From positions 1 through 64,000 of the forward strand of contig BGKB01000068.1 of assembly GCA_003116975.1 (NCBI GenBank): 64,000 nt of DNA, read 5' to 3'. Of the stretch, positions 2-31,640 are shown piece by piece. Below the pieces are notes generated by a model. The model saw only the letters and a list, made by a program, of their open reading frames with translations, had not been told where the DNA came from and ran no database searches. This stretch comes from Aurantiochytrium sp. KH105 (lineage: Eukaryota; Sar; Bigyra; Thraustochytrida; Thraustochytriidae). A program made the translations under genes and the position numbers. Positions within the stretch are counted from its first letter, which is position 1. Each line of letters opens with the position of its first letter.

Positions 2-496
2 CAGAACAACTCTGGCAACACCGCGCTCATGCTGGCATGTTGTCAGCCAGAGGAATCGCATCACATTGCGGAGAAGTTGCGCAGCCTCAAGCTCTGCTAC
101 GCGGCAGGCGCCAATCTGGATCTGACCGACAATGATGGTGACGACGCGCTGGCGCTGGCCGACATATTTGATAACGCCGACGCCGTTGCATTTCTCGAGT
201 TCGCGAAGGCGTCAGAGGTGGCGGGGCACCTGTTGGGCGAGCTGTGGCAGTCGCGGAGCCTCGTGGTGGCCTTTTACGATAAAAGCTTGCTCACCATGCA
301 GGACTGTTCGGCGCTGCAAGATGAGAACCTACGAGAGATGGGCGTGACCTCGTCGTTGGAGCGGCGCAATATCCTTCAAAAGCTCAATCCGTCCGCTGCT
401 CTGGCGCCGCGGGCGTCGCTGTTGAGACGCGCATCGCGGCACCTAGGCGGCCTGGTCCGGCGCCTGTCAGGCAAAGAAAGAGTGAGTAAAAAGTGA
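2..496 (+). CDS. Ankyrin-SAM-like protein, 3' end only, no TIR domain
   Basis: The frame is open from base 2, so the start lies outside the window and the Met at 29 is internal. The first residues (QNNSGNTALMLA) are the end of an ankyrin repeat. A degenerate ankyrin-like segment (LCYAAGANLDLTDNDG) follows, then a SAM-like helical module ending EMGVTSSLERRNILQKLN, then a basic tail. The whole stretch aligns closely with the middle of the ankyrin-SAM-TIR protein at 1479-2891, so the two are paralogues. This copy ends (RLSGKERVSKK, stop) exactly where its neighbour enters the TIR domain. The last coding bases contain GTGAGT, which resembles a splice donor, but I found no TIR-coding exon before 1479. 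It is either a TIR-less adaptor or decoy form or a truncated gene. The function as a protein-interaction module is inferred. Confidence 0.75.
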   Translation, partial: QNNSGNTALMLACCQPEESHHIAEKLRSLKLCYAAGANLDLTDNDGDDALALADIFDNADAVAFLEFAKASEVAGHLLGELWQSRSLVVAFYDKSLLTMQDCSALQDENLREMGVTSSLERRNILQKLNPSAALAPRASLLRRASRHLGGLVRRLSGKERVSKK

Positions 497-7485: not shown

Positions 7486-10400
7486 ATGGGAAGGGTGCAG
7501 GACTTGATTGCGCGCTTCAACAAAGGTCACGTCGGCGGAGCGTACCCTGAGGTTGAGGGGGACGAAGCCGCGCAGGCGGAGGTAGAGCGACAGGCTGTCA
7601 CGATGAACCAGGCGGAGGCGCTTCCTGGGGACCCTGAGGTTCTGAACGACATTGCTGTTCTCGTTGTACACGATCCCGCGGACGAGACCGTGGCCGAGCA
7701 GCTGGTTGAAGCGATCCAGCCTCACCTCAGCGTGCCTGTACACACCGCAAGACAAGCCGCTGAGGCAGAAAAGGAGGCTAAAAATGCCGAGGTTGCTCTA
7801 CTCCTTGTGGGCTCGGCACTCCAAAGCAACTGGAAGCTCGTTGAAGCTGCGGCGAGAGTCCTTCCGAACGCGCTTGTACCCATCCTCATCGACGATACAA
7901 TGTATGAACAAAAGGACTGGAAAGGCGCGATTGCGTGGTACATGCCCAATCTACTCTATGTCGATTTCTGTGACCCCGTCAAGGCTGACATTCACGCGAT
8001 CATGGCCCAAGTCTTTGCCGCCCGAGCTCGTGCTTCACCAGCACCGAACAGCAAGGACTTTCACTTTTTCGTTTCTCATGAATGGAGTGCCCACGAAAAG
8101 GCTATTGCGATCGCTCAGGAACTGCGTGACAAAGGTCTCGAAGCGTGGCTCGATGACAATGAGGTGTCTGCAAGCACTGACGAGAGTATGGCAATGGGCA
8201 TCGAAACATCAAAGGTCTTCCTCATTCTCGCAACCAAAAGGTACATGGACAAGATCAACAGTGGTAACTACGCCGATAACTGCCTCAAGGAGTTCCAGTA
8301 TGCTGGTAGCAAACGCTTCGATCGTATTGTGGTTGCTGCTCTGGAACCGGATATGATGAAGGCTTCGACGAAATGGATCGGGCGCTTCAAGCGCGGACTA
8401 TCGCGCCAGGTTCCCGTGGACCTGATCACCTTATCGGATGAGGCGACCGACCGCCTCGCTGATGCCATTCGCTTGCGCATTGAGACGCCCAAGGCTTCAT
8501 TTGATGTCACGGCCTTGACGCGCGACATCAACTCTCGCTTGAACCCCTGCAACTCAGAGGCTTGGGCCAAGGGTAAGGCGGTGAACTTTACCTCCGGCAC
8601 GCGGAGCTGGATCATCGACGAGTTTTGCGACTGGTACAACAAGAACCAGAGTGCCGTCTTTATTCTCGTAGGCGACGGCGGCGTTGGCAAAAGCGTCATC
8701 ATGGCCGAGCTTTGCCACCGTGGAGGCGCTCTTAAAACTGACGAAGATGTCGAAAAGATCAAGGCCGTTGGAAGCGTCGAGCCGCGCCGAAAGTCGTCGC
8801 GTATACGCAGCCTGTGGCGTCGTAGCAAAAAAGAGCGCCAGCCCATCTTGGTGGCCGCGTACCATTTCTTTCGTCATGATCAAGTCACGACTGCTGCACC
8901 GAAAGAGGCTCTCGTCAGCATTGCATGGCAGCTCTGTCAGAGCGTACCCGGCTTTGTCAATGAGCTTGATTCTGTGAGCCTTAGCGATGTCCGCGACAAG
9001 CCTCTGGTCGACGTGTTCCAGACCATTCTCGTTGATCCTTTGAACAGGCTCGTCTCCAACCAGATGCGACAAGTGGTTGTGCTCGACGCTCTCGACGAGT
9101 GTAGCAAGAGCGACGCTGTTTTGCGGGATATTGTTCGCACGTGGAAGGATGTGATGCCCTCATGGCTCAGCTTGGTCGTGAGCACACGTCCCGAAGGCGA
9201 GATTCAACGCGGCGTCACCAACAACAGCCTTAATTCCAAAGTGCTGGAGCTCACGGACAGAGAGAACTTTCGCGACATCGAGCTTCATATCAAAAATCTA
9301 CTCCGCGACATGAAAGATATCGTGGAACAGAAAGACGTTGCTTCCTGCGCCAAGATTCTTTCCGAACGATCCGAAGGTCTCTTTCTCTGGGCGAGCTTCC
9401 TTCCTGAGACCCTGAACCGGATGCACGAGGTGAAGCGAGGTGGATTACTGACCGCGCAAGACATCTCCCACAAAGACGCCATTCCCAACGGGCTTGGCGG
9501 CATGTTCGAGGAGTATTTTGAGCGCCTGCGCGACAAGATGGGCGGTGACGATGCCTATCAGTCCCTACTGACTCCTATCGTGGCAGCACGCGAGCCGCTG
9601 AGCGTCGAGCAACTCACCGTGATTTTTGGCAAAACCAAGAAGAAGACCCAAACGATCATTGGCAACGCGCGTAATCTCTTGTACCAGAGCGGCGATGATC
9701 GCGTGGCGCTCATCCACAAGCGAATGGCAGACTGGCTGCTGGATGACGACCTGAGCGGAGATCTTGGCGTGGACATTGACGATGGCCATATTGCCTTAGC
9801 CGACTACTGCAGCAGCTCGCGGGACGACGTTTTCTCGCTCCGTCACGCCGTCTTTCACCTCGTCAAGAGCGGCGAGCACGCTGAGGCTTTCGAGCTCCTG
9901 AACGACTTTGCATGGGTACAGAGCGCCATCTCTGTCGGTAACGATGAAGTGCAAAGGCATGCCTCAATCGGAAACCTCATTCGCGACTGCGTCGAACTCG
10001 GCATCTACTTTGCGCCCGAAAGTGATACGCCCCGTTTCCTGAGCAAAGCAGTGCATGCCCTCAGCTACGACCCCGACGAACTTGCGTCGCAAGTTCTGGC
10101 GCGTCTTGGTCACGACTCGAAAGATCCCTTGGCACGTAGTCTGCAAGCACCTGATCAGCCATGGCTGGAGCCTTCTCGCGTCACCCTTGCTCACCCCCGT
10201 GACCCCTTGCTTCACGTGTTAAAGGGGCACTCTGGTCTGGTTACTAGCGTGGCGATGAAGGATGACACGGTTGTTTCAGGGTCCGGGGACGGCACGGTGC
10301 GCGTCTGGAATGCGACGTCGGGCGAGGAACAGCACGTGTTGAAGGGCCACTCTGATTTGGTATATAGCGTGGCGGTTGATGGAGATCGGATAGTGTCAGG

Positions 10401-11997
10401 ATCCGATGACAAGACGGTGCGCATTTGGAACGCTACGACGGGCGAGCAGCAGCACGTGCTGCAGGGGCACTCTCATCGAGTCAATTGTGTGGCGATCAAT
10501 GGCGACACCATTGTATCAGGGTCTTTAGACAACACGGTACGCGTCTGGGACGCCACGTCGGGCGAGGAGCAGCACGTGTTAAAGGGGCACTTTCATGGAA
10601 TTTTGAGCGTGGCGATTGAAGGCGAAACAATCGCTTTAGGGTCAAGAGACGGTACGGTGCGCATCTGGGACACTACGTCGGGCGAGGAGCAGCATGTGTT
10701 GAAGGGACACTCGGGTGTGGTTTGGAGCGTGGCAATTGCGGGCGATACAGTCGTTTCTGGGTCCTATGACGGGACGGTGCGCATCTGGAACGCGACTTTG
10801 GGCGAGGAGCAGCACGTGTTGAAGGGGCACTCCGGTATTGTCTGGAGCGTGGCGATTGAGGGCGAAACAGTCGTTTCTGGCTCCTATGACGGGACGGTGC
10901 GCATCTGGAACGCGACGTCGGGCGAGGAGCAGCACGTGTTGAAGGGGCACTCTGAAGCGGTCTCAAGCGTGGCGATTCAGGGCGACATGGTTGTGTCTGG
11001 ATCCGGTGACGATACGGTGCGCATCTGGAACGCAACGCTGGGCGAAAAACAGCACGTTGTGGAGGGGCACTCACTTCCCGCCTATAGCGTGGCGATTGAT
11101 GGCGACGTGGTTGTGTCTGGGTCCGAGGATAAAACGGTGCGCATCTGGGACGCTACATCGGGCGAGGAGCAGCACGTGTTGAAGGGGCACTCTGATTGGG
11201 TCAGAAGCGTAGCGATTGAGGGCGACACAGTCGTGTCAGGGTCCGAAGATCGTACAGTGCGAACCTGGAACGTTATATCGGGCGAGCAGCAGCATGTCTT
11301 GGAGGGGCACACTTGTGCGATCCATAGTGTGGCAATTGAAGGCGACGCAATTGCGTCGGCGTCCGATGACCACACGGTCCGCATTTGGGACGCTACGTCG
11401 GGCGAGGAGCAGCACGTGCTGAAGGGGCACTCTGACTGGGTCAGGAGCGTAGCAATTGAGGGCGACACGATTGTGTCAGGATCTGGGGATTGCACAGTGC
11501 GCATCTGGGACGCTACGTCGGGCGAGGAGCAGCACGTGCTGGAGGGCCACTCTGGTCCGGTCTTGAGCGTGGCGATTGAAGGTGATACAATTGTTTCAGG
11601 GTCAAGAGACGGGACGGTGCGCATCTGGAGCGCTACAACGGGCGAGGAACAGCACGTGTTGGAGGGGCATTCTGATTGGGTCACGAGTGTTGCGATCGAG
11701 GACGATACGGTCTTGTCATGGTCACTCGATAGGACCACTCGCTTCTGGAATGCTCGAACGGGTGAGGAACTTGGCGCCGATGAGGAGACAGAGGTATTGA
11801 CTTCTTCTGGCATGAGCACTCTGGTGAATGTTCAGAACGAAACGCATGTGAGGCTTGGCTTAGGCATTGGCTTCACGACGGACCACCCGATCAGTAGTAC
11901 AGTTCGTCAGGGAAACGTTTACGTTCTCAGCGACCTCAATGGATTGGTACACATCTTGCATGTCGAAGGACTCGAATCGGAGACTCGAAGCCTTTAG
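7486..11997 (+). CDS. TIR-TIR-NACHT-WD40 STAND receptor (NLR-like)
   Basis: The protein has 1503 residues and no intron. Residues about 55-165 form a divergent TIR-like domain with Glu120 in NWKLVEAA. Residues about 191-340 form a second TIR (KDFHFFVSHEW, AWLDDNEVSA, ATKRYMDK) with Glu269 in NCLKEF. Both Glu residues align with the SARM1 catalytic Glu. The NACHT/STAND NTPase follows, with P-loop GDGGVGKS (396-403) and Walker B VVVLDALDE (530-538), then a helical region (FLWASFLPETLNRM). Residues 910-1429 are 13 WD40 repeats of 40 residues each, and a 75-residue tail ends in another propeller-like strand. By family knowledge, WD40 repeats sense a ligand, NACHT oligomerises and TIR acts as effector, probably by NAD cleavage. 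The plan resembles fungal HET and animal or bacterial NLR-like proteins. The ligand is unknown. Confidence 0.93.
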   Translation: MGRVQDLIARFNKGHVGGAYPEVEGDEAAQAEVERQAVTMNQAEALPGDPEVLNDIAVLVVHDPADETVAEQLVEAIQPHLSVPVHTARQAAEAEKEAKNAEVALLLVGSALQSNWKLVEAAARVLPNALVPILIDDTMYEQKDWKGAIAWYMPNLLYVDFCDPVKADIHAIMAQVFAARARASPAPNSKDFHFFVSHEWSAHEKAIAIAQELRDKGLEAWLDDNEVSASTDESMAMGIETSKVFLILATKRYMDKINSGNYADNCLKEFQYAGSKRFDRIVVAALEPDMMKASTKWIGRFKRGLSRQVPVDLITLSDEATDRLADAIRLRIETPKASFDVTALTRDINSRLNPCNSEAWAKGKAVNFTSGTRSWIIDEFCDWYNKNQSAVFILVGDGGVGKSVIMAELCHRGGALKTDEDVEKIKAVGSVEPRRKSSRIRSLWRRSKKERQPILVAAYHFFRHDQVTTAAPKEALVSIAWQLCQSVPGFVNELDSVSLSDVRDKPLVDVFQTILVDPLNRLVSNQMRQVVVLDALDECSKSDAVLRDIVRTWKDVMPSWLSLVVSTRPEGEIQRGVTNNSLNSKVLELTDRENFRDIELHIKNLLRDMKDIVEQKDVASCAKILSERSEGLFLWASFLPETLNRMHEVKRGGLLTAQDISHKDAIPNGLGGMFEEYFERLRDKMGGDDAYQSLLTPIVAAREPLSVEQLTVIFGKTKKKTQTIIGNARNLLYQSGDDRVALIHKRMADWLLDDDLSGDLGVDIDDGHIALADYCSSSRDDVFSLRHAVFHLVKSGEHAEAFELLNDFAWVQSAISVGNDEVQRHASIGNLIRDCVELGIYFAPESDTPRFLSKAVHALSYDPDELASQVLARLGHDSKDPLARSLQAPDQPWLEPSRVTLAHPRDPLLHVLKGHSGLVTSVAMKDDTVVSGSGDGTVRVWNATSGEEQHVLKGHSDLVYSVAVDGDRIVSGSDDKTVRIWNATTGEQQHVLQGHSHRVNCVAINGDTIVSGSLDNTVRVWDATSGEEQHVLKGHFHGILSVAIEGETIALGSRDGTVRIWDTTSGEEQHVLKGHSGVVWSVAIAGDTVVSGSYDGTVRIWNATLGEEQHVLKGHSGIVWSVAIEGETVVSGSYDGTVRIWNATSGEEQHVLKGHSEAVSSVAIQGDMVVSGSGDDTVRIWNATLGEKQHVVEGHSLPAYSVAIDGDVVVSGSEDKTVRIWDATSGEEQHVLKGHSDWVRSVAIEGDTVVSGSEDRTVRTWNVISGEQQHVLEGHTCAIHSVAIEGDAIASASDDHTVRIWDATSGEEQHVLKGHSDWVRSVAIEGDTIVSGSGDCTVRIWDATSGEEQHVLEGHSGPVLSVAIEGDTIVSGSRDGTVRIWSATTGEEQHVLEGHSDWVTSVAIEDDTVLSWSLDRTTRFWNARTGEELGADEETEVLTSSGMSTLVNVQNETHVRLGLGIGFTTDHPISSTVRQGNVYVLSDLNGLVHILHVEGLESETRSL
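10213..11772 (+). repeat. 13 x 120-bp homogenised WD40 repeat array
   Basis: Units start with CACGTG(T/C)T (HVLKGHS) every 120 bp without any length change. Constant residues are the HVLxGH, SVAIxGD, VSGSxD, TVRIW and ATSGEEQ segments. Variation concentrates in the four or five residues after GHS (for example GLVT, DLVY, HRVN, GVVW, EAVS, LPAY, DWVR, CAIH, GPVL) and at the residue before TVR (G, K, N, D, R, H, C). Confidence 0.95.
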
Positions 11998-12211: not shown

Positions 12212-12945
12212 ACCCTTCACTCGCGTCGGGAAACAGCAGTAACGCAGCCCGCCTCGCTGGACGAGGTCATTTCCATCGCCGTTTTTTTTTTTTCGCGCGC
12301 TTGATGCCCTGGAGCAAGCTTCGACTCGACGATATGGCGTCTATGTTTATATCTTGGCGCCAGCGATTGTGGCTGAATGAACCCGGGGGTCGATGCCCCG
12401 CGTTATCGCCTTCGACAGCATCACGAAAAAGATTGGTGCCAGCAGCCGCGTGGACTCCGTGCAGCCAACTTTTTGTAAAAGAGACTGTGAACTTGATGCT
12501 CGGCCGCCACGCGCACAATCATCCTCGTGATAAGCACACGTATTGCGCTGCGCTATTCAAGGTTTTCTCGATCACAAGCGGTCGGCAGGGCCTTGGACGT
12601 TGCAGAGATCTTTTCGTTACCTTGCTTGCCAGTGCACACGAGGTCGAATGCACACGAGGTCGAATGTACACGAGGCCGAATGTACACGAGGCCGAATCGT
12701 CGGGCAGCGCAAAACGGTCGTTCTGACTCGCTCACCATACTCAGCCTCCCCGCTTCTCTCCTGGCTCTCTCGCTCCCGCCGCCGGCACCCGCTCCTGCAG
12801 TCGTCGTTCTCATCCATCCATGTCCAAACCACTCCAGACGCCAAAGCGCTGTGGCGAGACCTGCCACGAGCGCGCGCCCGCCTGAGCACATCGAGCTCTC
12901 AGCGCCATCCGCCTGGCCCGCGCGCTGCCTGGGCGCTGCGGCGGA
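12212..12945 (+). repeat. Dispersed degenerate repeat B, copy 2
   Basis: It is collinear with 5390-6125 and in the same orientation. Copies 1 and 2 therefore bracket the TIR-NACHT-WD40 gene as direct repeats. Confidence 0.65.
12635..12698 (+). repeat. Four tandem 16-bp units
   Basis: Units of the form (C/T)ACACGAGG(T/C)CGAATG occur four times. The first two share one variant and the last two another, which suggests a doubled dimer. They lie inside repeat B copy 2 and are absent from copy 1. Confidence 0.9.
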
Positions 12946-13111
12946 GAGGCCGAGACTCGGCCGGTCCGTCCAGCCAGCGCCGGCCCCGGGGCCTCCGGCC
13001 GAGGCAGACAGACCTCCACGGCCGTCGCCTCCCCGCGGCAGCTCTGCGCTTTCTCCGCCTCGCCGCGCTGCCGCCGCTCCCGCTCCTGCAGGCCGCTCCC
13101 GCCTCTGCATG

Positions 13112-13354
13112 NNNNNNNNNNNNNNNNNNNNNNNNNNNNNNNNNNNNNNNNNNNNNNNNNNNNNNNNNNNNNNNNNNNNNNNNNNNNNNNNNNNNNNNNN
13201 NNNNNNNNNNNNNNNNNNNNNNNNNNNNNNNNNNNNNNNNNNNNNNNNNNNNNNNNNNNNNNNNNNNNNNNNNNNNNNNNNNNNNNNNNNNNNNNNNNNN
13301 NNNNNNNNNNNNNNNNNNNNNNNNNNNNNNNNNNNNNNNNNNNNNNNNNNNNNN
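13112..13354. other. Assembly gap (243 undetermined bases)
   Basis: A continuous run of N in very GC-rich sequence in the 5' flank of the gene at 13745. Its true length may differ. Confidence 0.99.
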
Positions 13355-13744
13355 CTTCCTCTTCGTCCGCCTCCGCGCCTGAACCGCCCGCTCCTCCGCT
13401 GCCGCTCGCCCTCGCCTCCGCTTCCAGCGCCGCGCTGCTCGCCGGCCGCGGCGGCCGCGCCTCCCTCCGCCGCGCGCGCTCGCGCTCTCTCCGCGCTCGC
13501 GGCGGGGCCTCGTGGCGGGGCCTCGCGGCGCGGCGGTCGGGGACGAGGGCTCTGGTTCTCCCAGCGCTCCCCCGCGAGCTCTTCTCCCGCTTTGCAAGTT
13601 GCGTTCTCCCACCGCCCGGGGTTCTCCCGCCGCCTGGCTGGGTTCTCCCGCCGGCCGCCGAGGCGAGGCAGCAAAGAAGGCAGGCAGACGTGCAACGCGC
13701 AAGCCCGCGCATCGTCGGGGACGGCTACGCTTCGCCCGAGGAGA

Positions 13745-16700
13745 ATGCGGACGCGCGCGAGCCTGCGCGTGCTCGCGCCCGCGCTGCTCGCCGCGCTGCT
13801 CGCCGCGCGCTCGGCGGCGACGTGGACCTGCGACGAGGCGCGGCGCGGGAGCGGAGACGGCTGCGACTGCGGCTGCGGCGAGCGCGACCCGGACTGCGGC
13901 CAAGACGATGCGCCGCTCCTGGACCGCTGCCACGAAAAAGACGGCACCGTGTTTGAGCCCGTGAGCAAAGACTGGACGTGCACCGCGGAGAACGAGTGCG
14001 GGAGCCCTGTGCCCGACTGCGCCGCGATCCACCGCAAGGACGGTGACGGCATGCTCCCTTGCGGCGACTGTTATGACGGCCACGTGAGCAGCAGCGCGCA
14101 GGGCGCGTGCCGTTTACAAGGTGGAATACATTTTGTCGAAACGGAAACCGACATGCTCGATGAATTGCAGCGCCAAGCTATTTACGGGTACTATTTTTCC
14201 AACAAAGATGAAGATTATGGAATCTCCATAGATCTGTTTGCAGGTGAGCTGGTACTGGGCAACAACCCAAATGAATTTTTCCAGGTCGCTAGGGAAAGTG
14301 CCAGGGGTCCCGCTGGAATCCGCAAATATGTATTGGACGCATCTCGCAATGCATATGAACAGTTCGGGGAAACTGAGGATTTTAGTATGGGGAGTACGAA
14401 GCAATTCATTACAGACGTGGATGGCGACGGAGTCGCAGACTGGATCATGTACGGTCGCGGTGCGGATGTGGACAGATCAATAAACGTATTGCGCGTCTTC
14501 TCCTTTACCTCACCAAGCACAATCCAATCTCGTGAATCTGGTGTGACAATCTTGGAACAAAAATTACCAGACATCAGACTTCATGGACTTGGAGCCAAGG
14601 CAAATTCAAAGTTTGTCGACCGGATTGAGCGTGCTCAAGTGTTCGATCTGACCGGCGACAAACTGAAAGATTTAGTCGTTTTGCTAGACTCAGGCGAGCT
14701 CCAATTCTGGCCAAACAACGGAACTAGTCAAGAGCCAAGCTGGAGACAGGGTTTCACTTTCCAAACTGATACTCTTGCTTTAGACATCGCGTTGAACGAC
14801 CTGGATGGAGACGATCTCATGGACCTTTTGTTTCTATACAAAGATGGGATCGGCGCTCTACGAAATGTGGGAAATGCCAGCTGGCCCGCATTCGCTCTTC
14901 AGAGAATGTCGAAAGCGGAATTCTCGATTTCTAGCTTCTCGGCTTGTTCGAAAACACCTTGTGCAATATCCTTCTTAATTGCCGATCTTTTAGGGACGGG
15001 CGCTGATGACATCTTTGTTCGAGGTACACCAGACATGTGGTACTTTCGCCGTGTCACACAGAAAACCGCTTCTTTCGCTCGTGGTGACGAAAGCAAATAT
15101 CCTCACTCCATGAAAACTTTGTCAATCTGCCGTCCGCGCCACCCTTACTTTAAGGAGTTTGCTGACTTTGACGGTGATGGGGACCTGGACGTTCTTTGCG
15201 TGAATATGCTCAACCTGACCCATGGCACGATCGAGTACTATCGCAATGATGGCCTTCTTGGGTGGGTACGTCTTACAAAGACCCCTCCCTCTTCGAAAGC
15301 TCCAGCAGCAACTTTCAGCATATCAGAGGGCCTTCGAGAAGTCAAGGCAGTGGCTTTTGTGGACCTCGACAAAGACCCAGATGGCGACTTGGATCTGATC
15401 ATCTACGGCATTCCTGCCGAAAAAGGTGCTTCGCCTACGCGTGTGCTGGAGAATCGAGATGGCGTCTTCGAGCAGGTTGAAGACGATGACGACCCATTCT
15501 CAGATCTAAAGGGGCTAGAAGAGATCAAGACGTGCTTAAGGCTTGATCGTGACCTCACAATGGCTAAAAATAGAGAAACGATTCTCAAAGTTGTGAATTG
15601 CATCAACCATTCGAGCGATCTGGAGTACTCTGCCAGTCAGTTGGAAGATCTCATCAGAAGCAACAACCTTCGTCAAGAATGGCACAATTTTCTGTCTCAT
15701 TGTGAAGAGTTACAAGACACTTCGATATCAGAATGGGATTTTGATATCCTGGTCAGCGATATGCACAAATACCATTTCTACAACGAAACTGACGTTCAGG
15801 ACGTCGGATTTGCGCGATTTGCTCCAAACAAGCTCCACGCACTCTTTGACTTTCAACCATGCCAACCACAAGTATTCGTTCGAAGTACCAACGTAAACAG
15901 CCGTTTCGGGGCTTTCGAACCGGCAAGCCTCGACCTAAACTGGCCCGATAAAACACAAGCTTACGCTCTCATGGACGTCGACGGAGATGGCGACGACGAG
16001 GTGGTAGTATTTTCATCGTGGGATATGCACGTCTTCGAGAGCACAGATGGCTCAACGTTTATCGACGCTGGTGTTGTTCTTCCCCTCTCCAAAGAGTATG
16101 GTGGGGCAGATTCTTTGTACGCACTTTACGCAATTGACCTTGATGACGATGGCGATAAAGATATAGTCATGGAAACAGAACATAAGTTGCCCGGCGGCGA
16201 CAGTTTCACCGTTGACACTAGATATGCTGTATGCATTAACACCGGGCGTGACTGCGCATCTAACTGTGCAGGGAGTAGAGGTCAATGCATATCGGGGAGT
16301 GAAAAGGACAAAGACGGAATTGCAAACTTCGCGGCTTACATTCAAGGCTTGCCAAATCCAGATCTCACTCCTGGGATCTGTCTTTGTTCGGCGCAATACC
16401 AAGGTGATGCCTGTGAACAGTGCATTCCTGGTCGCTACGGCGAAAGCTGTCACCAAACCTGCCCTGACCGTTCCACAACTAGATTGGCGCCAGACGCATA
16501 CATGTTTCCTTCGTATCCAACCGTAGAGGATTGCGTGTGCCTGTCTTCGTTCGTCATGTCGAATTCTTTCGAGTGCACCTGTCCTCCAGGAGCTGGCTTC
16601 AACGCAGACTCAGATTTGTGCGAGCCCTGCGCAATTGGTGAATACAAGTCTTCGAGCGGTCTCCACGCCTGCGACACATGTCCACCAGGTAATTACACCT

Positions 16701-18808
16701 TTTCCGCAGGCCAGTCCGAATGCGAGCCAGAACAATGCGCACTTGGTTACGAACGTGATACGGAGACGCAAACGTGCAATCCTTGCGATCAAGGTCGCTA
16801 TCGTTCAGATGTCACGGAAGTCACATGCTTCCCATGCCCTGAGGACCGCCCTTTGACGGCATCAACAGGAACGATTTGGCTGAGCGATTGCTTGGCAGGG
16901 CCCGGCGCCGTTGTCAGCGAGAACGCAACCGCTGCGATCGCCTGCAGTGGTTCAGAAAAACTTCGTCTTGGCGCTGACTGCAGCCATGAAGGTCTCACGG
17001 TTGAGACGCTGCTCGTCAAGACGCATTACTGGCGTATCGCAAACACAAGCCTCGACGTTCGCGCGTGCCCCAAGGCTGCCTTTTGCGAGCCAGCAGGCTC
17101 CCCGGACACGCGAAAATTAGCCTCTGAACCTTCTACGTCTGACCTGTACTGTTCGCCTCACCACACCGGGACAATGTGCGCAAGTTGTATCAATGGTTTT
17201 GCGCTCAATGGATCTTTTCGCTGCGAAGAGTGCACACCTGCTCGTCGGAGTGAGGACACGTCCAAGGCAGCAATTTGGGCGGTGATCATGCTTATATTGA
17301 CAGTTGCGCCAGCGGGTTTTGTTGTCGCTGGACCACTCATGCGCCAAAGGACCGCCTCGCGATGTTCACTGCCAGCAAACCATTGCGGCTGCGTCACACA
17401 TGTGATCAAGATGTGTATGTCGATGCGAGCCCTCCCTAACGAGTCCGGATCTCGTCTGCAACGCTACATGTCATCAGCGCAAGGAAAAGCTCTCATTTTA
17501 CTCAAATTTGCGCAGATTGTCCTTGGGCTTGGCTCGATTGTCGGTATCATTGGCTCAAGCGGGTCGGCGGCCGAAATTATCCTCAACGGCAACTTTGGAG
17601 CTCTTCTCAACATTTTTTCTCTAGGATGCGCTGTACATGTCAACCTTTACGTGACGGTCATCGTGGTCACACTATGGCCATTGCTGTTTGCACTCGTGCT
17701 TGTGGGTGCAGTCGTTCTCTGTCGATTGGTGGCTCCCGACACTACCGTCTCCCGCGATCTCTCCATCAACGTCTTCACGGAGATCATTGTGCTCATGTAT
17801 CCGGGTATTTCGGGGACCATTCTGTCCGTCTTCGTGTACGACTCCATATCGCATTACGAGCAGGACGCAGCCGGCAATCCTGATCCGTTGCCATACCGCA
17901 TACTTCAGCAGGATTCTACAATTGATTTCGACGATGACCTGAGCAAGGCGATGCGTGTGTATGCGGGCATCATGGTCTTTGTGTACCCACTCGGGGTAGT
18001 GGCGCTCTTGGCAGCCGGCATATCTTTTCAACGTACCTCCAAGGGCTCGCGGACACCCGAGCAGGGTGTGCGCGGAATGCTTGTCGTGGCAGCTCAAGTC
18101 GTACAGCACAGGTACAAGCCAGGTCGAGGCTGGTACGCTTGCATCGAGTTGATTCGGCGCCTGATGCTGACCTCGGGCTTCCTGCTCATGCTCTTGACGA
18201 GTTTCCGTTTGGCATCAAATTATCTCATTGCGTCCAGCCAATTCTTTCTTTGCGTTCTCCTTTACGCCAAGCCGTATGCGCGCGAGGATGATGAGTTGTT
18301 TGAGATTGTCTCGCAGACGCTTTTGGTCGTCCTGGCACTTGGTGTGAACTCGCTGACGAGAGTGAGCATTGCGACAGAAACAGCTTCCGTGGTGGTCTGG
18401 ATCTGCTCGATTGAGCTCGTCGCCTTTGTCGGTCTGGCGCTTTGGGGTGGATATCGTGGTGCTTTTGTGAGCGTGACGGGGACGGGTCATTCGTCCTCTT
18501 TCGCTGAAGACGCCAAGGGTTCAACCCAAAACCCAGAAACCGAAAAGCTGCCCTCCTGGGATCTCGAGCTGAGCGAAGACGAGCTGGACCTCGAGCTGAG
18601 CGAGAGTGATTATATCCCGGTAGCGCCGCCCAACAGTCCCAATGTACAGCAGCAGGTACCTTCGTCAAGTCGTACTCTCAACGCTCATAGCTTCGTCCGG
18701 CAGCAAGAAGAAGAAGAAGAAGAAGAAGCAGAGGACACCGTTGACGATGCATCACACGTCGATAGCGATGTCCTCTCACTCAAGGCCGCCGCCCTCACCA
18801 AAACGTGA
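13745..18808 (+). CDS. FG-GAP repeat, Cys-rich, multi-pass membrane surface protein
   Basis: The protein has 1687 residues. A signal peptide (MRTRASLRVLAPALLAALLA) decides the start and is followed by a Cys-rich segment (CDCGCGERDPDC). FG-GAP/VCBS-type calcium-binding loops follow over residues about 220-820: DVDGDGVAD, DLDGDDLMD, DFDGDGDLD, DLDKDPDGDLD, DVDGDGDDE and DLDDDGDKD. Residues about 830-1170 are EGF/laminin-like and GCC2/GCC3-like Cys-rich modules (CPPGNYTF, CNPCDQGRY). Residues about 1175-1580 contain roughly nine hydrophobic segments, for example AAIWAVIMLILTVAP and LMLTSGFLLMLLTSF. The tail is acidic with a short poly-Glu run. It is likely a plasma-membrane receptor or adhesion protein with an integrin-alpha-like ectodomain; ligand and signalling are unknown. 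Similar Cys-rich plus polytopic proteins are common in protists. Confidence 0.85.
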   Translation: MRTRASLRVLAPALLAALLAARSAATWTCDEARRGSGDGCDCGCGERDPDCGQDDAPLLDRCHEKDGTVFEPVSKDWTCTAENECGSPVPDCAAIHRKDGDGMLPCGDCYDGHVSSSAQGACRLQGGIHFVETETDMLDELQRQAIYGYYFSNKDEDYGISIDLFAGELVLGNNPNEFFQVARESARGPAGIRKYVLDASRNAYEQFGETEDFSMGSTKQFITDVDGDGVADWIMYGRGADVDRSINVLRVFSFTSPSTIQSRESGVTILEQKLPDIRLHGLGAKANSKFVDRIERAQVFDLTGDKLKDLVVLLDSGELQFWPNNGTSQEPSWRQGFTFQTDTLALDIALNDLDGDDLMDLLFLYKDGIGALRNVGNASWPAFALQRMSKAEFSISSFSACSKTPCAISFLIADLLGTGADDIFVRGTPDMWYFRRVTQKTASFARGDESKYPHSMKTLSICRPRHPYFKEFADFDGDGDLDVLCVNMLNLTHGTIEYYRNDGLLGWVRLTKTPPSSKAPAATFSISEGLREVKAVAFVDLDKDPDGDLDLIIYGIPAEKGASPTRVLENRDGVFEQVEDDDDPFSDLKGLEEIKTCLRLDRDLTMAKNRETILKVVNCINHSSDLEYSASQLEDLIRSNNLRQEWHNFLSHCEELQDTSISEWDFDILVSDMHKYHFYNETDVQDVGFARFAPNKLHALFDFQPCQPQVFVRSTNVNSRFGAFEPASLDLNWPDKTQAYALMDVDGDGDDEVVVFSSWDMHVFESTDGSTFIDAGVVLPLSKEYGGADSLYALYAIDLDDDGDKDIVMETEHKLPGGDSFTVDTRYAVCINTGRDCASNCAGSRGQCISGSEKDKDGIANFAAYIQGLPNPDLTPGICLCSAQYQGDACEQCIPGRYGESCHQTCPDRSTTRLAPDAYMFPSYPTVEDCVCLSSFVMSNSFECTCPPGAGFNADSDLCEPCAIGEYKSSSGLHACDTCPPGNYTFSAGQSECEPEQCALGYERDTETQTCNPCDQGRYRSDVTEVTCFPCPEDRPLTASTGTIWLSDCLAGPGAVVSENATAAIACSGSEKLRLGADCSHEGLTVETLLVKTHYWRIANTSLDVRACPKAAFCEPAGSPDTRKLASEPSTSDLYCSPHHTGTMCASCINGFALNGSFRCEECTPARRSEDTSKAAIWAVIMLILTVAPAGFVVAGPLMRQRTASRCSLPANHCGCVTHVIKMCMSMRALPNESGSRLQRYMSSAQGKALILLKFAQIVLGLGSIVGIIGSSGSAAEIILNGNFGALLNIFSLGCAVHVNLYVTVIVVTLWPLLFALVLVGAVVLCRLVAPDTTVSRDLSINVFTEIIVLMYPGISGTILSVFVYDSISHYEQDAAGNPDPLPYRILQQDSTIDFDDDLSKAMRVYAGIMVFVYPLGVVALLAAGISFQRTSKGSRTPEQGVRGMLVVAAQVVQHRYKPGRGWYACIELIRRLMLTSGFLLMLLTSFRLASNYLIASSQFFLCVLLYAKPYAREDDELFEIVSQTLLVVLALGVNSLTRVSIATETASVVVWICSIELVAFVGLALWGGYRGAFVSVTGTGHSSSFAEDAKGSTQNPETEKLPSWDLELSEDELDLELSESDYIPVAPPNSPNVQQQVPSSSRTLNAHSFVRQQEEEEEEEAEDTVDDASHVDSDVLSLKAAALTKT

Positions 18809-19831: not shown

Positions 19832-20766
19832 CGGGCCGCCTTGGGGTGTTGGCCGCCGCCTGGCCGGGCTTGCGCGGACGTGCGGTAAGCCTCGCGCGTG
19901 CACTGCTGCCCGTGGCCGTTCTCGAGGTTCTCGCCCTCAGGCTGAGCAGCAGCGCTCTCTCGGTCTCGTCGCCGGCGGTCTCGCGCAGGCCAGGCCCCAG
20001 CGCAGGCTCGTAGCATCGTGCACGGCGTCCTCGCGTCTCGCATGCGTCGAGGGGTGAAGAGAGTGTGCGCTTCACTGCCACTGGCACGTCATGTTACTTC
20101 GGACCACAAGCTGTGACCAAAGCGCGGACACGGCACCTCGATCGAGCAATTATTCGTGCCTCTCCATAGCGCGCGACCTGAAGCTGCCCTCTACGACCTG
20201 TAGCAGCCAGCTCCAGCTCCAGCTGGCTTTAGCTGCCTTCAGCCATGCCAGCCTTGTGGCGGGTCCGCGGCGCTCCCACAGGGACTGCTGCGTGTACATG
20301 CGTGAAGAGTGCATGCACAGGCTATCCGTTGAGCCAGCGCTGCGGCCTGCTGCTGGCTGTGGCAATGGCGGGCGGAGAGAGACGTCCTTGTATACTACAT
20401 ATCTTTTTTTCTTCAATTTTTTTTCTCTAGTATCTGTCCGTCTTTGGGTGTCGGGGCGCGCGACGGCGCGGGAGCCGGCGTAGAGTCCTGGCGAGGCGAT
20501 ATACACGTCCGCGCCAGCTGTTCGCCGCACCTCGCAAACAAATTAATGGCGTTTCTTTTGTCCCGAGCGCTCTTCAGGCTCTGCGCCACAATGAGCCTGC
20601 TCTGCTCGGCCTTGCTGTGCTTTGCGCGCGGAGGCGGCTCGCTTCCGTACAGGGTCGAAAGATAATTGTCTGCTACGCCAAAGCACGCAGACAAGTGAGC
20701 AAGCGAGCTGGCAAGCAAAACCTGAACTCTCGATCTCAACAATTTCGAAACCTGAACAAAAAAATC

Positions 20767-23700
20767 ATGAAACACCACAGCGCTTTGCTTTCTCTAGCGT
20801 GTATAAGTTTGCTCGGCCAGGATGTGCAAGGCCAAGCGTGCTCTGTCACATCGACTACCACGCCACCCGCGTACCCAGCCGATGGCGGCTTCACCACATC
20901 CGGCCTCGTCAGCATGGCCACCGCCACCGAGGTCGTGACGCTTCAGTACACGCCCAATACCCCTCCCGATGGCTTCGACGACCAAGTTGACTGCCCATAC
21001 GACCAGTCAGGCCTTCTTGCCTGGGAAGACGCCGCAACCTGGACCTCGGGTGTCGTCCCTGGCGACGGCGAAGATGTCGTGCTCCCCGAAGACGCGCGCG
21101 TCCTTCTTGGCGGTTGCTCCGTTTCCGCAGATACCGTCTATGGCAAGATCACCATCCCAGCATCTTCAGAGCTCATCTTTGCGGACGAAGACATCTTCTT
21201 CAACACCACCGGCATGCAGGTCGAGGGCAAGCTCACCCTCGGCTCTGAATCCTGCCGTCTGCACAGCGACATTGTCATTACTTTGCACGGCGATCGCCCT
21301 GACAGCCTTCCCGCCCCAGCCTGGTACAAGGGCATCGCCGCGGTTGGCACGGGCACCCTCGACATTCACGGCAGCATTTTCCATCCAACCTGGACACGTC
21401 TGGCCGCCACGGCCGCGGCAGGAGACACGCAAATTTACCTTCAGCATCGTGTGAATTGGCGCGCTGGCCAACGCCTCGTGCTCACGGGAACAGAAATCAA
21501 GGACTCTCGCGACTGGCATCGCAACGAGGTGCGCGAGATTGCAGACGTGCACGTGAAAGGCGAATTCTCGCGCATCACGCTCACCGAGGCTCTTGCATAC
21601 ACGCACTATGGCGGCCCCGAGTACCAGGGCGAGGTGGGTCTACTTTCGCGCAACATTGTCATTCAAGGCGACGAGACGTCCGAGCCCACGGATACGGACA
21701 ACGATGTGTGTGAGCACGACAAGTTCGGCACGTACCCGTGCGAGCACAAGTGGCTGACGGGCTATGGCGGGCACACGATTGCCATGGGCCCGAATGCCAC
21801 GACTCGTTTCGAGGGCGTCGAGCTTTACCGCATGGGTCAGACCAATGTGCTTGCGCGCTATCCGTGGCACGTGCATGTGATTGGCGAGGGTGGCTTTCGC
21901 TCGTACCTCAAACACTCGAGCATGCACCATACATTCTACCGCTGCGCCACCATCCATGGAACGCACAACACGCTTGTACAGGACAACGTCGCCTACGATG
22001 CCATCGGGCACTGCTTTTACAGTGGCGAGGACGGCGTTGAAGAGAACAATACAGTCGCATTCAATCTAGGTAGCCATGTGCATTTCATGGAGTACCCGCG
22101 AACGGCCTACGCACAAAAGATGTCGGCCATTTCGAGCTACGAAAACCTCACCCAGCCTGCTGACACCACCGCGTCACCCTTTTACATTACCAATGCATAC
22201 AACTCGTACATTGGCAACGCCGCTTCGGGAGGTTACGCGGGTTTTGCGGTGGTGCGACTGCCCAAGCCCATCATGGTGTTTCGCGACGCGCAGACGCGCT
22301 CGGGTCGTGACGTGCCTCACTCGCTTCCCTTTCTTGCTTTTGAGGGCAACAGCTGCCACTCCGTAGGGTCGTCGTGGTGGGTCTTTCAGTCGTGCATTTA
22401 CGTTGGTGGTCAGTTGTGGCACCCGAGCGCAAATTCGAGCGCGCTCTCGTACAATCCGGGCCGCATCGTCTCAGGCCGCGACACAAAGTGCACCACGGCA
22501 GACGGCTCGCTCGTCAAATGCCCTCTGGTCATGAACAATACCAAAATTTTCCTGAGCAACATTGGAATCAACAACTGGGGCGCTCGAGGAAGCATCGATG
22601 CCTTTGAGGCGCATGACACCATGCGCGCCGCAGCCATCATTGGCTCGCACTATGTGCACAACATGCTGACCGAGTGCCGTACTTCGTCGGGCTTTGTACC
22701 AGAGCAACCGAGCTCGCACTACTACGAAAAGCTTTGGCACCTAGGAAAGCACGTGGGTTTCGAGTGGTACGACACGCTGCAGGCACATCTGATTGACGGC
22801 ATCACCTTTCGTAATTGCGGAAATGCCAAAAAGAACTACCCCGTGTGGCGCTTTCTCACACACTCGGACAGATATGTGCCAGGTCTGATGCAGAGCTCAC
22901 GACGCGTCAAGTACGAGAATGTAGACCGCGAGGCCCTAGTGATGCCCTCGTCTCAGAGTCTCCTGTCGGTGAGCGGTGCTTTGGCCAACTGGGTGGATGA
23001 CGACGGCACTGCTTTCGACAGTGTCGAGGACGGCTCGAGTGGACCCAAGCTCATTGGCGCTGCGCGTGATGGCGTCGAGTGGTGGCGCCTCGACGACAAT
23101 TGCACGCAAGAGGGCATGTGGTACAATTGCGACCGACTGGCTCCCGCATCGGGTCAGCGACGGGGCGTAGGAAGCTTTACGGCCGTGGTGGATCCGGATG
23201 TGCAGGCTCAGTTCGCAGCCAACAACATTTGCATGAATGTTGGCTCAACGCCTTGCCCTCGCATTGGCTCGGCCATGCACCTCGGACAAGCAGGCGATCC
23301 TGCAGAGGTGGGTCTTCCCATCCGCGGCAACGCCGTAGTGACAGGTCCTACCAACGGACTGGGCTGGCTTCTCCTCTTTGACGCTGGTTCGCCAGTGAGC
23401 GCCAAGTTTTCCAAGCCTCAGATTGACGAGGACGACACCGTCATCATTGTTATGCCATATCCCGCCGGAACGACATTTCGCGTCACTTACGAGGCAGTGT
23501 CTTGGTGCAAGCCCAAGTACAATACCTGCGAGCACGTCTTCACCGAGGCGACTTCGCTACGCGAGATGCTCGACGGCGTTGGCGATCAGTATTACTTTAG
23601 CGCGAGTCGCGGGCTCTTTTTTGTCCGCTTCACGCCTCAGAAACGGGATGCCCTCGACTTTTCCCAAGCTCCTGGCTATGGTAATCTTGGTCTTTCTTAC

Positions 23701-24705
23701 TTTGAGCATGACAACATGACGAGGATCCCCGGTACCGTCTCTGGCGGAGGAATTGTGATCGAGGCCAGCGGGTGCACGCTTAATGCAACGAACGAGAACT
23801 TTTGTGAAAAGTCGGAATATGATGACACGGATATCTGCTCGGAATTTGGATATCCGGCGGGCAGCACGCAGATTGCCTACGACACATGTGTTCCTTCCTC
23901 TGCAGTGGTGCTGCCAACGTTTAACCCAACAAGTGCACCAACGACATTGGCTCCGACGCAGACACCGACGCAGACGCCAACGACATTGGCGCCCACCCAG
24001 ACACCAACGCAGACGCCGACGACATTGGCTCCGACGCAGACACCGACGCAGACGCCAACGACATTAGCTCCAACGCAGACGCCGACGCAGACGCCGACGA
24101 CGTTGGCGCCCACCCAGACACCGACGCAGACACCAACGACATTGGCTCCAACGCAGACACCAACGCAGACGCCAACGACACTGGCGCCAACGCAGACGCC
24201 AACGACACTGGCGCCAACGAGCGCGGACTCAGAAGCATGCACAGTGTCGACCATGGAGGGCAGATACATTGGACCGACGAGTAAGACCGTATTGGTGACC
24301 GTGTGGGAGGTGGATTCGGTGGCGGCATGCCAGGACGAGTGCCGAAAGCACGAGGCATGCCAGGCGTACAATTACCAGGGAGAGAAGGGACGTTGCAACC
24401 TTTTGCGAAAGGATACGCACGAGCTCCTGTACAAGGATGCATGGACTTCTGGCTTCTTTGATTGCCCAGGCGATGAACCCGTAACTTCGTTCTGCCGACA
24501 CCACGATACGACCGCGACGGGCACGCTGTTGCGAAGCTTTTCGACCCGTTGGAATTATCGCTACTGTCAGCGGCAGTGCTTGAACGATGCGGCGTGTGTC
24601 CATTACGTCTTGCAAGAGGGCTCATGCACACTGCTGTCGGCCTTTGCGAGTTCATCTCCTCTGAGCGGCGCGACGTCGGGTCCCCGCGAGTGCAAACCAT
24701 TGTAA
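20767..24705 (+). CDS. Secreted G8 / parallel beta-helix / PAN protein, Pro-Thr linker form
   Basis: The protein has 1312 residues. The start is set by the signal peptide MKHHSALLSLACISLLGQ. A G8-like domain lies at about 85-185 (WEDAATWTSGVVPGDGEDVV, then ITIPASSELIF). A long beta-helix region follows (about 190-900) with PbH1-type strands and motifs such as PWHVHVIGEGG and VAYDAIGHCFYSGEDGVEENN. This is the layout of CEMIP/TMEM2 and fibrocystin-family ectodomains, which bind or cleave polysaccharide in animals; activity here is inferred only. Residues about 1059-1155 are a Thr-Pro-Gln-Ala-Leu linker. Two PAN/apple-like Cys modules end the protein (CQDECRKHEACQAYNY and CQRQCLNDAACVHY). No C-terminal membrane anchor is seen, so it is probably secreted or bound to the cell surface. 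A paralogue lies at 33915-37535. Confidence 0.88.
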   Translation: MKHHSALLSLACISLLGQDVQGQACSVTSTTTPPAYPADGGFTTSGLVSMATATEVVTLQYTPNTPPDGFDDQVDCPYDQSGLLAWEDAATWTSGVVPGDGEDVVLPEDARVLLGGCSVSADTVYGKITIPASSELIFADEDIFFNTTGMQVEGKLTLGSESCRLHSDIVITLHGDRPDSLPAPAWYKGIAAVGTGTLDIHGSIFHPTWTRLAATAAAGDTQIYLQHRVNWRAGQRLVLTGTEIKDSRDWHRNEVREIADVHVKGEFSRITLTEALAYTHYGGPEYQGEVGLLSRNIVIQGDETSEPTDTDNDVCEHDKFGTYPCEHKWLTGYGGHTIAMGPNATTRFEGVELYRMGQTNVLARYPWHVHVIGEGGFRSYLKHSSMHHTFYRCATIHGTHNTLVQDNVAYDAIGHCFYSGEDGVEENNTVAFNLGSHVHFMEYPRTAYAQKMSAISSYENLTQPADTTASPFYITNAYNSYIGNAASGGYAGFAVVRLPKPIMVFRDAQTRSGRDVPHSLPFLAFEGNSCHSVGSSWWVFQSCIYVGGQLWHPSANSSALSYNPGRIVSGRDTKCTTADGSLVKCPLVMNNTKIFLSNIGINNWGARGSIDAFEAHDTMRAAAIIGSHYVHNMLTECRTSSGFVPEQPSSHYYEKLWHLGKHVGFEWYDTLQAHLIDGITFRNCGNAKKNYPVWRFLTHSDRYVPGLMQSSRRVKYENVDREALVMPSSQSLLSVSGALANWVDDDGTAFDSVEDGSSGPKLIGAARDGVEWWRLDDNCTQEGMWYNCDRLAPASGQRRGVGSFTAVVDPDVQAQFAANNICMNVGSTPCPRIGSAMHLGQAGDPAEVGLPIRGNAVVTGPTNGLGWLLLFDAGSPVSAKFSKPQIDEDDTVIIVMPYPAGTTFRVTYEAVSWCKPKYNTCEHVFTEATSLREMLDGVGDQYYFSASRGLFFVRFTPQKRDALDFSQAPGYGNLGLSYFEHDNMTRIPGTVSGGGIVIEASGCTLNATNENFCEKSEYDDTDICSEFGYPAGSTQIAYDTCVPSSAVVLPTFNPTSAPTTLAPTQTPTQTPTTLAPTQTPTQTPTTLAPTQTPTQTPTTLAPTQTPTQTPTTLAPTQTPTQTPTTLAPTQTPTQTPTTLAPTQTPTTLAPTSADSEACTVSTMEGRYIGPTSKTVLVTVWEVDSVAACQDECRKHEACQAYNYQGEKGRCNLLRKDTHELLYKDAWTSGFFDCPGDEPVTSFCRHHDTTATGTLLRSFSTRWNYRYCQRQCLNDAACVHYVLQEGSCTLLSAFASSSPLSGATSGPRECKPL
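20861..21697 (+). repeat. Segment nearly identical to 34009-34845
   Basis: About 840 bp of coding sequence match the second G8 gene with only scattered substitutions at a constant offset of 13148. Similarity falls sharply after CGAGCCCAC(G/C)GATACGG, apart from another near-identical patch to about 21876. Confidence 0.92.
23941..24220 (+). repeat. 39-bp coding minisatellite (Pro-Thr linker)
   Basis: Six full 13-residue units TLAPTQTPTQTPT plus two shortened units encode a mucin-like linker. Synonymous differences between units (ACATTGGCT versus ACGTTGGCG versus ACACTGGCG) show it is not brand new. It is absent from the paralogue. Confidence 0.93.
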
Positions 24706-29946: not shown

Positions 29947-31468
29947 TCGAATCCATCGATCCGTCGAGCGCGCGGGCAGGGACGGACGCGGCCGCAGCGC
30001 GATCCGCATCGACGCAGCCGGCTGACGCTCGCGTGCTCGCCCGAGCGAGGTTCGCGGGGCGCCAGAGACGAAACATCAGGGCGTACAAACGCACAGGCAG
30101 TCTGACAGACCCGGCGGTCCGTTCGCAGGCCGGCGGCCTGGCCGGTGGCGGACTCGGCCGACCGACCCGCGCGGCGAGAGAGCCCAAACAGCGCGACCGC
30201 GAGAGAGCCCAAGCCTCGGCGGGAGGGGATCGGCGCTCGCCCGCTCGCTCGCTGGCTGGCTGGCCGGCTGGCTGGTCGGCCGGCCATAACGACGATCGCG
30301 ACGGTGCCAACGACGGCGTCGCCTGCCTTCGGAGATCGTGGCGGCAGAACAGAGCAAAGCAGAGCAGTGCAGACCCACCAGACCAAGCAAGCCAAGCCAA
30401 GCCAGCAACCACCAGACAGTCACAAGCTCGTTCGTTCGCTCGTTCGTTCGCTCATTCACAGCGCTGCCAGGGCTGCCAAGAGCTCGAAGGCGGCGTCGAC
30501 TGCGAGCCCGGTTTCGACCGGGCAGGCCGTCGGGTGCGGATTCCGGCGCGGCGCTTCCTGCTCGCCCCGCGCAGTTCATTTCGAGACGAGGACCTGGCCG
30601 GCATCGGCTGTGCCGGTTCGCGGGAGATTGGGTGGCAAGGGAGGCAGGGAGGAAGGAAGGAAGAAAAGCACGCCCGGTGGGTGGGTCGGCCAGCACGCGC
30701 GCGCACTGCGACGGTGCCCGGAGTTACGGAATGTGTCTAATGTAAATGGACAAAGTAATTGTAACGAACGAGCTTGGCGAGGACTGCGCGCGAAAGAAAA
30801 ATTTGCGCGCTTCCAAGACCAGTCCGCATTCGCGGCGGCGCCTGCCAGTGCAGCCTATAGCTACGTCACAGTTATGGGTGCATGAAATCCACCGCCAGCC
30901 AGCACAGCAGGATTGAGACTGGTTGATTGGCTCGTGCCGCTCGGCCCACCCGCCGATCCGCTAACCACTGCTCGGTGCGGCCACGAGCGCAGCCGCGTCA
31001 TGATCGGATCCAACGATCTCATCTCGCGACCGATCGACCGACCGGCTGATCAAGCAGTCGATCGACAAACCGACCGATCGACCGCGAAGCTGCCTCAGCG
31101 ATCAAGCGAGAACGTCGCCTGTGTGTTTTTGCTTCTTTACAGAGCTGGTAATTGCGAAGAGGCCTATTTCAGCCACAAGTGCACTGCAATGACCAAGAGC
31201 TAAGACTGAACGCGAGCTGAAACCAATGGCGCACAGATATCGCTATCGCGGACCTCGTTTGACGTTTCAAGTGGTCTCTCGCCAAGGGGAGAAGCGGAAT
31301 GGGCAACGTGCCGCGAAGCACGCCATCACCCAAGTTCAATAAGATGGAGTGGTCGCAACATCACCGCCCACGGTAAGAACCTCGACAACGCAGCAAGCAC
31401 TTCTTCAGCAACATGATCAGGAAAACAATGCAATTGCTGGCTGATAACGAATCCAGCGTACTGCCATG

Positions 31469-31640
31469 TTCGTCTCACCTTTCCCTTCTCTCTCGGTGAT
31501 GGCCTATATAAAGCGCAAAGCTCACGTCAAAAAGAACGCGGTGAGCATAACACACGCTGTTTGTCAATTCCATTGACGCATCAGAGATGTACTGAGCCGT
31601 CTGCAATCCTTTTCTAGCTGCGCACAATACCTCTGCTTCG
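31469..31640 (+). promoter_or_regulatory. Putative promoter module, copy 1 of a 172-bp tandem duplication
   Basis: It carries TATATAAA at 31505-31512, preceded by CCTTTCCCTTCTCTCTC and followed by AAGCTCACGTCAAAAAGAAC. The unit is repeated at once downstream with essentially no change. Promoter function is inferred from the TATA box; no protein gene follows. Confidence 0.55.

Follow-up and report, generated by a model that had tools for sequence, protein, structure and literature searches.

The locus described here raises the question of whether one gene of a unicellular protist encodes a complete NLR-like receptor and, if so, what such a receptor would serve. The window, i.e. the whole stretch of 64,000 nucleotides that was analysed, is the start of contig C68 in a genome of 76.03 Mb and 367 contigs. 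An earlier note had claimed a complete receptor of the STAND immune type in a single 1503-residue frame, with a P-loop, a Walker B motif and 13 WD40 units. The frame at 7486-11997 was confirmed, and its domains follow the order TIR-like, TIR, NACHT (NPHP3_N type), TANC1-type winged helix, 13 WD40 repeats and a divergent last blade. A stop-free run as long as this gene has a probability of about 1e-23 on base composition alone, and the open frame suggests a gene without introns. We have next to no doubt about the receptor architecture, the features of which are as follows.

7486..11997, + strand: whole gene, ATG to TAG, 1503 codons plus stop in one open frame; a full-length 97% copy lies on contig C21
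7639..8040, + strand: TIR1, putative degenerate TIR-like domain, residues 52-185
8053..8505, + strand: TIR2, TIR domain, residues 190-340
8290..8292, + strand: Glu269 codon; the residue aligns with the KE motif in the TIR of SARM1
8548..9465, + strand: NACHT (NPHP3_N type) ATPase core, about residues 355-660
8671..8694, + strand: P-loop GDGGVGKS, residues 396-403
9073..9099, + strand: Walker B VVVLDALDE, residues 530-538
9490..9795, + strand: winged helix (HTH_TANC1 type), about residues 669-770
10204..11037, + strand: propeller 1, seven blades, from the structure model
10219..11778, + strand: 13 WD40 repeats of 40 residues, a 120-bp tandem array, residues 912-1431
11080..11961, + strand: propeller 2, blades 8-13 plus the divergent blade, from the strand order in the model
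11779..11994, + strand: C-terminal tail of 72 residues, divergent 14th blade, strands 589-612 of the WD model

The Pfam search for the N-terminal domains used residues 1-895 as the query. TIR_2 (best stretch 194-289, 55.7 bits, cut-off 28), NPHP3_N (447-566, 69.9 bits against 24.8) and HTH_TANC1 (692-785, 27.3 bits against 27) exceeded their cut-offs, as did the WD40 profile in the window protein. The profiles named in the earlier note were recovered, except that classic NACHT PF05729 stayed below its cut-off (21.6 against 26.7 bits). NB-ARC was also below (12.4 against 23.5 bits), a second TIR_2 stretch appeared at E below 1 without a stated position, and the HET domain was absent from the ten Pfam families found at E up to 1 with this query. 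NCBIfam gave only low-scoring matches to the window protein, all under cut-off, and PADLOC placed HEAT-ARM_XIII over the WD40 part and Avs1b over NACHT (24.8 bits), together with weak TIR-type matches. P-loop, Walker B and winged helix stand in order, and the protein is a STAND NTPase of the NACHT/NPHP3_N type; the identification of TIR2 and NACHT is certain.

Structure models, a check that the earlier note had proposed, covered the TIR/STAND part and the WD40 part and agree with this assignment: TIR and STAND folds were found in the N-terminal model, the fold search covering the part from TIR2 onwards. Against RPP1, the region from TIR2 to NOD gave 423 aligned positions with an overall rmsd of 19.7, the single domains superposing only when taken alone. 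The WD40 model holds two seven-bladed propellers, a result for the window gene only and from a model, and 2ymu aligns over its residues 34-612. The count of 13 WD40 units proved exact, with thirteen repeats of precisely 40 residues followed by the divergent 14th blade.

The claim of two tandem TIR domains held in full for TIR2 and in part for TIR1. By itself TIR1 had no Pfam match, retrieved no TIR in a profile search of the PDB and had no similarity to TIR2 in a direct BLAST comparison (E 0.72). Profile-profile comparison with hhalign aligned it to the TIR family over 123 of 128 columns (probability 73%, E 3e-5) and, weakly, to a narrower TIR2 profile (probability 7.5-20%). The second half of TIR1 resembles the TIR of a neighbouring ANK-SAM-TIR gene, and in the structure model its strands and helices are ordered as in TIR. 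Profile and secondary-structure evidence together point to a degenerate TIR-like domain, probably a helper or scaffold TIR; its glutamate 120 is E in 26 of the 31 family loci described below, K in four and a gap in one. TIR2, in addition to its TIR_2 profile match, takes a TIR fold in the model, and its Glu269 aligns with the KE of SARM1 and tir-1, in which this glutamate is the catalytic one. This residue is invariant in all 11 TIRs of alignment A5 and is E in 30 of 31 loci, with one gap. We lean towards NADase activity as the predicted output of TIR2.

When compared with its own genome, the window protein gave at least 57 matching pieces (31 of 633 candidates scored). The family comprises at least 31 loci, namely the window gene and 30 further loci that were fetched, each of the latter with one long open frame (1107-1905 codons from stop to stop; the window gene has 1512). 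The residues of the switch, P-loop K402 and S403, Walker B D534, D537 and E538 and winged-helix His744, are kept in all 31 loci, as are NACHT plus winged helix. At least 70% of the TIR1 stretch is present in 30 of 31 loci, and the same holds for TIR2, so that the tandem arrangement, regarded earlier as an unusual feature of one protein, is a family trait. Median NACHT identity is 78.6% among 30 loci (L021, without anchor, was left out). Only the window and C21 copies reach 95% identity over the 420-residue NACHT stretch among the 31 loci, and the C21 copy (L009) is presumably the other allele of the window gene; both haplotypes may be partly in the assembly, in which case genes per haploid genome would be fewer than loci.

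With the first 900 residues as a protein query, 13 relatives were found, of which ten were from Hondaea fermentalgiana (60-97%), two stood at 41% and 38%, and one, of bacterial type, at 23%. When 13 Hondaea fermentalgiana proteins were compared with the 31 loci, six found a match at 94-99.9% and three matched nothing better than 74%, so that the source genome appears to be Hondaea fermentalgiana or close to it, within the Labyrinthulomycetes. The stock of TIR and NACHT domains in this genome is very large for a unicellular eukaryote, with at least 150 TIR_2 matches (150 of 258 candidates scored; those listed above cut-off) and 80 NPHP3_N matches (138 of 138 candidates scored), two haplotypes possibly being counted in both; the TIR_2 proteins could supply partners. 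One protein, P0028, carries HEPN_DZIP3 ahead of an NPHP3_N NACHT and a TANC1 winged helix, apparently another effector on the same switch.

Two further observations concern the distribution and size of the loci. Of the 23 family loci on contigs at least 100 kb long, nine lie no more than 20 kb from an end of their contig, where 2.6 would be expected (P 0.0003); the window locus was left out of this count, and seven further loci are on smaller contigs. Such a pile-up could also be produced by repeats that break the assembly, and the four contig ends inspected held no TTAGGG runs that would point to a subtelomeric position. Seven proteins (7, 14, 14, 14, 21 and twice 13 blades) had suggested that blade numbers come in multiples of seven, a rule that was rejected since the WD regions of the larger set are about 5 to 18 units of 40 long (24 of 31 loci with a value).

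The number of loci also bears on the idea that the gene encodes a scaffold similar to NPHP3, TANC1 or ANKRD50, with a role in housekeeping or development, in which the TIR folds would bind proteins and cleave no NAD+. NPHP3_N and HTH_TANC1 do fit the NACHT region better than classic NACHT, relatives are listed at their source under names like 'Ankyrin repeat domain-containing protein 50' or 'Protein TANC1', and the use of WD40 repeats by non-immune proteins is likewise counted against a receptor. However, a family of at least 31 loci with hypervariable sensor codons and repeat exchange (see below) does not fit a scaffold, NPHP3_N is also found in the fungal NACHT-WD40 proteins P0059, P0060 and P0062, and TIR2 keeps its catalytic-type Glu. 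We consider a scaffold role improbable.

The evolution of the sensor was followed in 277 recognised repeats from 30 genes, restricted to 40-residue repeats that fit the framework motif, with the C21 allele left out. At framework sites, 162 of these repeats, distributed over 23 of the 30 genes, lie within 10% of a single DNA consensus, and silent positions of this homogenised set are uniform as well (codon 29, for example, is ATC in 154 of 162). Codons 6, 7, 9, 23 and 25 of the same 162 repeats take 22, 36, 27, 23 and 17 different forms and the other 35 codons 2-14, a contrast partly built in by the picking of repeats for framework likeness; positions 5 and 14, which lay outside the picking criteria, take 9 and 7. 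Without picking, mean identity within genes is 0.57-0.97 for the framework against 0.11-0.39 for the five residues (30 genes). Framework DNA identity is 0.90 or more in 11 of 30 genes, and internal repeat identity reaches 85% in five (L011, L024, L033, L034 and L036). Both the window gene and the family have a conserved repeat in which codons on the propeller face are hypervariable. As many as 247 of the 277 five-residue combinations are distinct, and the homogenised set without the window gene has 152 distinct five-codon combinations among 161, of which two occur in more than one gene.

For 44.2 of 276 repeats the nearest relative belongs to the gene that holds the repeat, against 8.9 when shuffled (sd 3.1), pairs at 90% DNA identity occur between genes (4575 of 36,698) and within genes (238 of 1252), and repeat order is not conserved between P0001 and seven annotated relatives (0.34-0.99 of shuffles reach the observed value). 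It follows that repeats turn over inside genes and are also common to different genes.

Substitution rates were compared in 11,022 repeat pairs with DNA identity of 85% or more, 498 of them within one gene, and with positions 5 and 14 excluded from both classes. In these non-independent pairs, pN was 0.542 at the five codons and 0.035 elsewhere, and pS was 0.403 and 0.091, respectively. The raised pS leaves room for focused mutation, codon shuffling or repeated selection, and for this reason selection and local mutation are not separated by these figures. Template-adenine mutagenesis of the kind seen in diversity-generating retroelements was rejected, as all three positions of the five codons hold several bases with no adenine-only pattern.

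It could be argued that neutral gene conversion alone homogenises the repeats and that the five codons vary freely as exposed surface. The WD40 arrays of seven other proteins, mostly NACHT or kinase-NACHT proteins and hence no clean non-immune control, are also most variable at this face (an eighth had too few repeats), and in the window gene dN/dS is about 1.1 at positions 5, 6, 7, 9, 23 and 25 and 0.16 elsewhere, which is compatible with relaxed constraint. Because those other arrays vary there too, face variability by itself is no immune mark; the unusual feature is the near-identical framework around the face. On the other hand, the ratio of pN at the five codons to the synonymous rate elsewhere is about six, whereas free drift would give at most about 1, an argument that weakens if mutation is focused at these codons, as their pS allows. 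We give little credence to neutral conversion as the sole cause and favour, from the way the sensor repeats of the family evolve, a putative role in self/non-self or antiviral recognition.

The window gene itself takes little part in this homogenisation. Its repeats share on average 68% protein identity (0.679 over 40 residues) and 73% DNA identity in pairs, only one of the 13 belongs to the 162-repeat consensus set, and a dS of about 0.86 rules out recent homogenisation. The presumed alleles on the window and C21 contigs differ at 38 of 1503 residues, with dN/dS of 0.25 overall and 0.27 in the WD40 part, and the five codons take three of 14 WD40 differences (1.8 if spread evenly), giving no clear excess that would indicate ongoing diversification of this gene. 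Their dS is uneven, being 0.19 in TIR1 (7639-8040) and 0.01 in the NACHT-winged helix-helical region (8521-10218), a pattern that short tracts of conversion could have left.

In two other members with Hondaea fermentalgiana counterparts of 99-99.9%, the five codons take none of two and one of three differences, which makes these members as stable there as the window gene. In the remaining pairs they take seven of 11 in P0003/L014 (even 1.4; WD part 83.0%, N-part 94.4%), two of four in P0007/L013 (even 0.5; WD part 94.1%, N-part 86.9%) and two of 24 in P0008/L037 (even 3.0), where P0003 and P0007 are partial proteins from contigs of 4.4 and 2.9 kb that are possibly mis-assembled. Only P0003/L014, one of six pairs, combines an excess at the five codons with a faster WD part. 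The window gene is therefore a diverged, intact member, and it is in other members that sensor diversification of the fungal type is seen.

The next gene upstream offers a possible partner, and a second copy of its first domains is cut by the contig start.

1479..2891, + strand: ANK-SAM-TIR gene, next upstream, possible partner; five ankyrin stretches, weak SAM, TIR
2..496, + strand: second ANK-SAM copy, cut by the contig start; the frame closes before any TIR

The two copies are 66% identical over 158 residues. In the gene at 1479-2891, SAM scores below its Pfam cut-off (16.8 against 23 bits) and a 99-bp ankyrin repeat array (90% matches) is present; when searched against the genome, its protein matched at least 153 pieces, with 90 of 587 candidates scored. 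Elsewhere in the window, the genes at 20617-24705 and 33846-37535 both carry G8, CEMIP-type beta-helix and PAN domains, the long frame at 12527-18808 holds FG-GAP repeats and an ephrin-receptor-like stretch with an N run at 13112-13354 inside it, and 31468-31811 is a perfect tandem duplication of a 172-bp unit.

From the architecture, conserved residues, model folds, number of loci and repeat statistics given above, we infer the following working for the receptor. A ligand would be bound on the top faces of the two seven-bladed WD40 propellers and would release the NACHT-winged-helix switch, which would then bind ATP and form a ring. The ring would bring TIR2 domains together for cleavage of NAD+ via Glu269, leading to cell death or to a nucleotide signal, perhaps received by separate ANK-SAM-TIR proteins. 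New specificities would arise in the family through homogenisation of the WD40 repeats and their exchange between genes, with the five binding-face codons remaining hypervariable. We think it probable that the gene at 7486-11997 is a STAND (NLR-like) non-self receptor with this full working, one of at least 31 loci, and judge non-self recognition in the broad sense a likely function on the same sequence evidence.

We further propose, tentatively, that the family is a fast-evolving germline receptor library in a unicellular protist, which we hold to be a real possibility rather than a likely one: 22 loci besides the window gene would draw on one WD40 repeat cassette, which recombination would keep the same in all paralogues even at silent sites, with the five face codons renewed by selection or by focused mutation or shuffling, and with nearly as many face combinations as repeats. 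If this is true, single cells have an NLR repertoire that does not depend on multicellularity and whose repeats are exchanged across the whole family. Fungal NLRs are reported to occur only in filamentous species and to be absent from yeasts (PMC4986451), and diversifying eukaryotic NLR repertoires have been tied to multicellular life. This link could be put to a direct test in a large, intact and diversifying TIR-NACHT-WD40 family of a single-celled stramenopile, which would also offer a simple system in which to study the targets of the receptors (virus, bacterium or self) and the origin of repeat exchange and hypervariable codons.

The origin of the switch was considered in a NACHT tree of 28 sequences, P0058 being dropped for want of a P-loop. 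The thraustochytrid copies grouped with P0012 and P0013 (99/97), apart from the bacterial-type and fungal groups; long branches, seven open forks and a midpoint root mean that no donor can be named. Short exact patterns, which can miss distant relatives, matched 21 times in viral_contigs and 11 and 87 times in genome_contigs, and no close-family relative was confirmed among these matches, so that a viral or bacterial origin of the close family found no support in these scans.

The earlier note had called such architectures sparsely described in heterokonts. This stands insofar as no paper on thraustochytrid NLRs was among the matches listed in a search of the open-licence literature for thraustochytrid or stramenopile NLR, TIR and NACHT. 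However, TIR-NB-WD40 proteins have been published for a red alga, Chondrus crispus, as a multigene group that joins TIR, a nucleotide-binding domain and WD40 in one protein, with TIR in 23 of 58 NB-WD40 proteins (PMC7145615); the likeness is drawn from the published description, and the available text of that paper does not mention hypervariable repeats. TIR-NBD proteins with WD40, TPR or LRR have been published for bacteria and plants (PMC9153377, PMC7145615). Fungi have TIR NLRs as a small group, oomycetes have ankyrin-TIR proteins (PMC9153377, PMC7145615, PMC10197012), and brown algae have NB-ARC-TPR candidates (PMC11378527).

The bacterial-type TIR-NACHT(NPHP3_N)-WH-WD40/-TPR proteins P0014 and P0054 have the same domain order, including NPHP3_N and HTH_TANC1, and the same catalytic-type Glu as TIR2, but carry only one TIR and lie on another branch of the NACHT tree, P0014 being about 25% identical to the window protein. 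Plant TNLs (RPP1, ROQ1) share the TIR-NOD-sensor order, with TIR2 and NOD each matching RPP1, whereas the sensor here is WD40 and not LRR and the switch is NACHT/NPHP3_N and not NB-ARC. Apaf-1 shares the STAND core, the winged helix and the double WD40 propeller, its paired propellers having seven and eight blades, and TIR stands here in place of its CARD.

The closest design is that of the HNWD genes of Podospora anserina (HET-D, HET-E and HET-R), which combine NACHT with a WD40 sensor of varying repeat number. HET-D and HET-E are described with homogenised repeats, a variable face, two seven-bladed propellers and divergent last blades, the variable positions of HET-E being 10, 11, 12, 14, 30 and 32 (PMC12222747). 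The likeness extends at the family level to homogenised repeats with few hypervariable codons and, in the model of the window gene, to two seven-bladed propellers and divergent C-terminal blade(s). Through a hand alignment of the 42- and 40-residue repeats, we take the six HET-E positions to correspond, in order, to 5, 6, 7, 9, 23 and 25, of which position 5 is not hypervariable here. This shared design, with conserved repeats, a variable binding face and, in the window model, the propellers and last blade of HET-E (PMC12222747), would also suit an allorecognition receptor that reads a polymorphic self protein at fusion of cells or nets, like HET-D and HET-E, rather than a pathogen. Such a role seems unlikely, given about 30 loci against the ten NWD genes of P. 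anserina (PMC4986451), and given that HNWD repeats are described as differing more between paralogues than within one (PMC12222747), in contrast to the between-gene pairs at 90% identity found here.

The window gene is not an HNWD member: its N-terminus is TIR-like plus TIR and lacks the HET domain, fungal NACHT proteins fall outside the thraustochytrid group of the tree, and its own repeats, at 0.679, are unhomogenised against the fungal NLR criterion of 85% or more internal identity (PMC4986451). The family differs further in that its repeat cassette is common to the 22 loci besides the window gene and that its host is a unicellular stramenopile. A probable non-self receptor family, it nevertheless matches Podospora HET-D and HET-E in the main features of sensor evolution.
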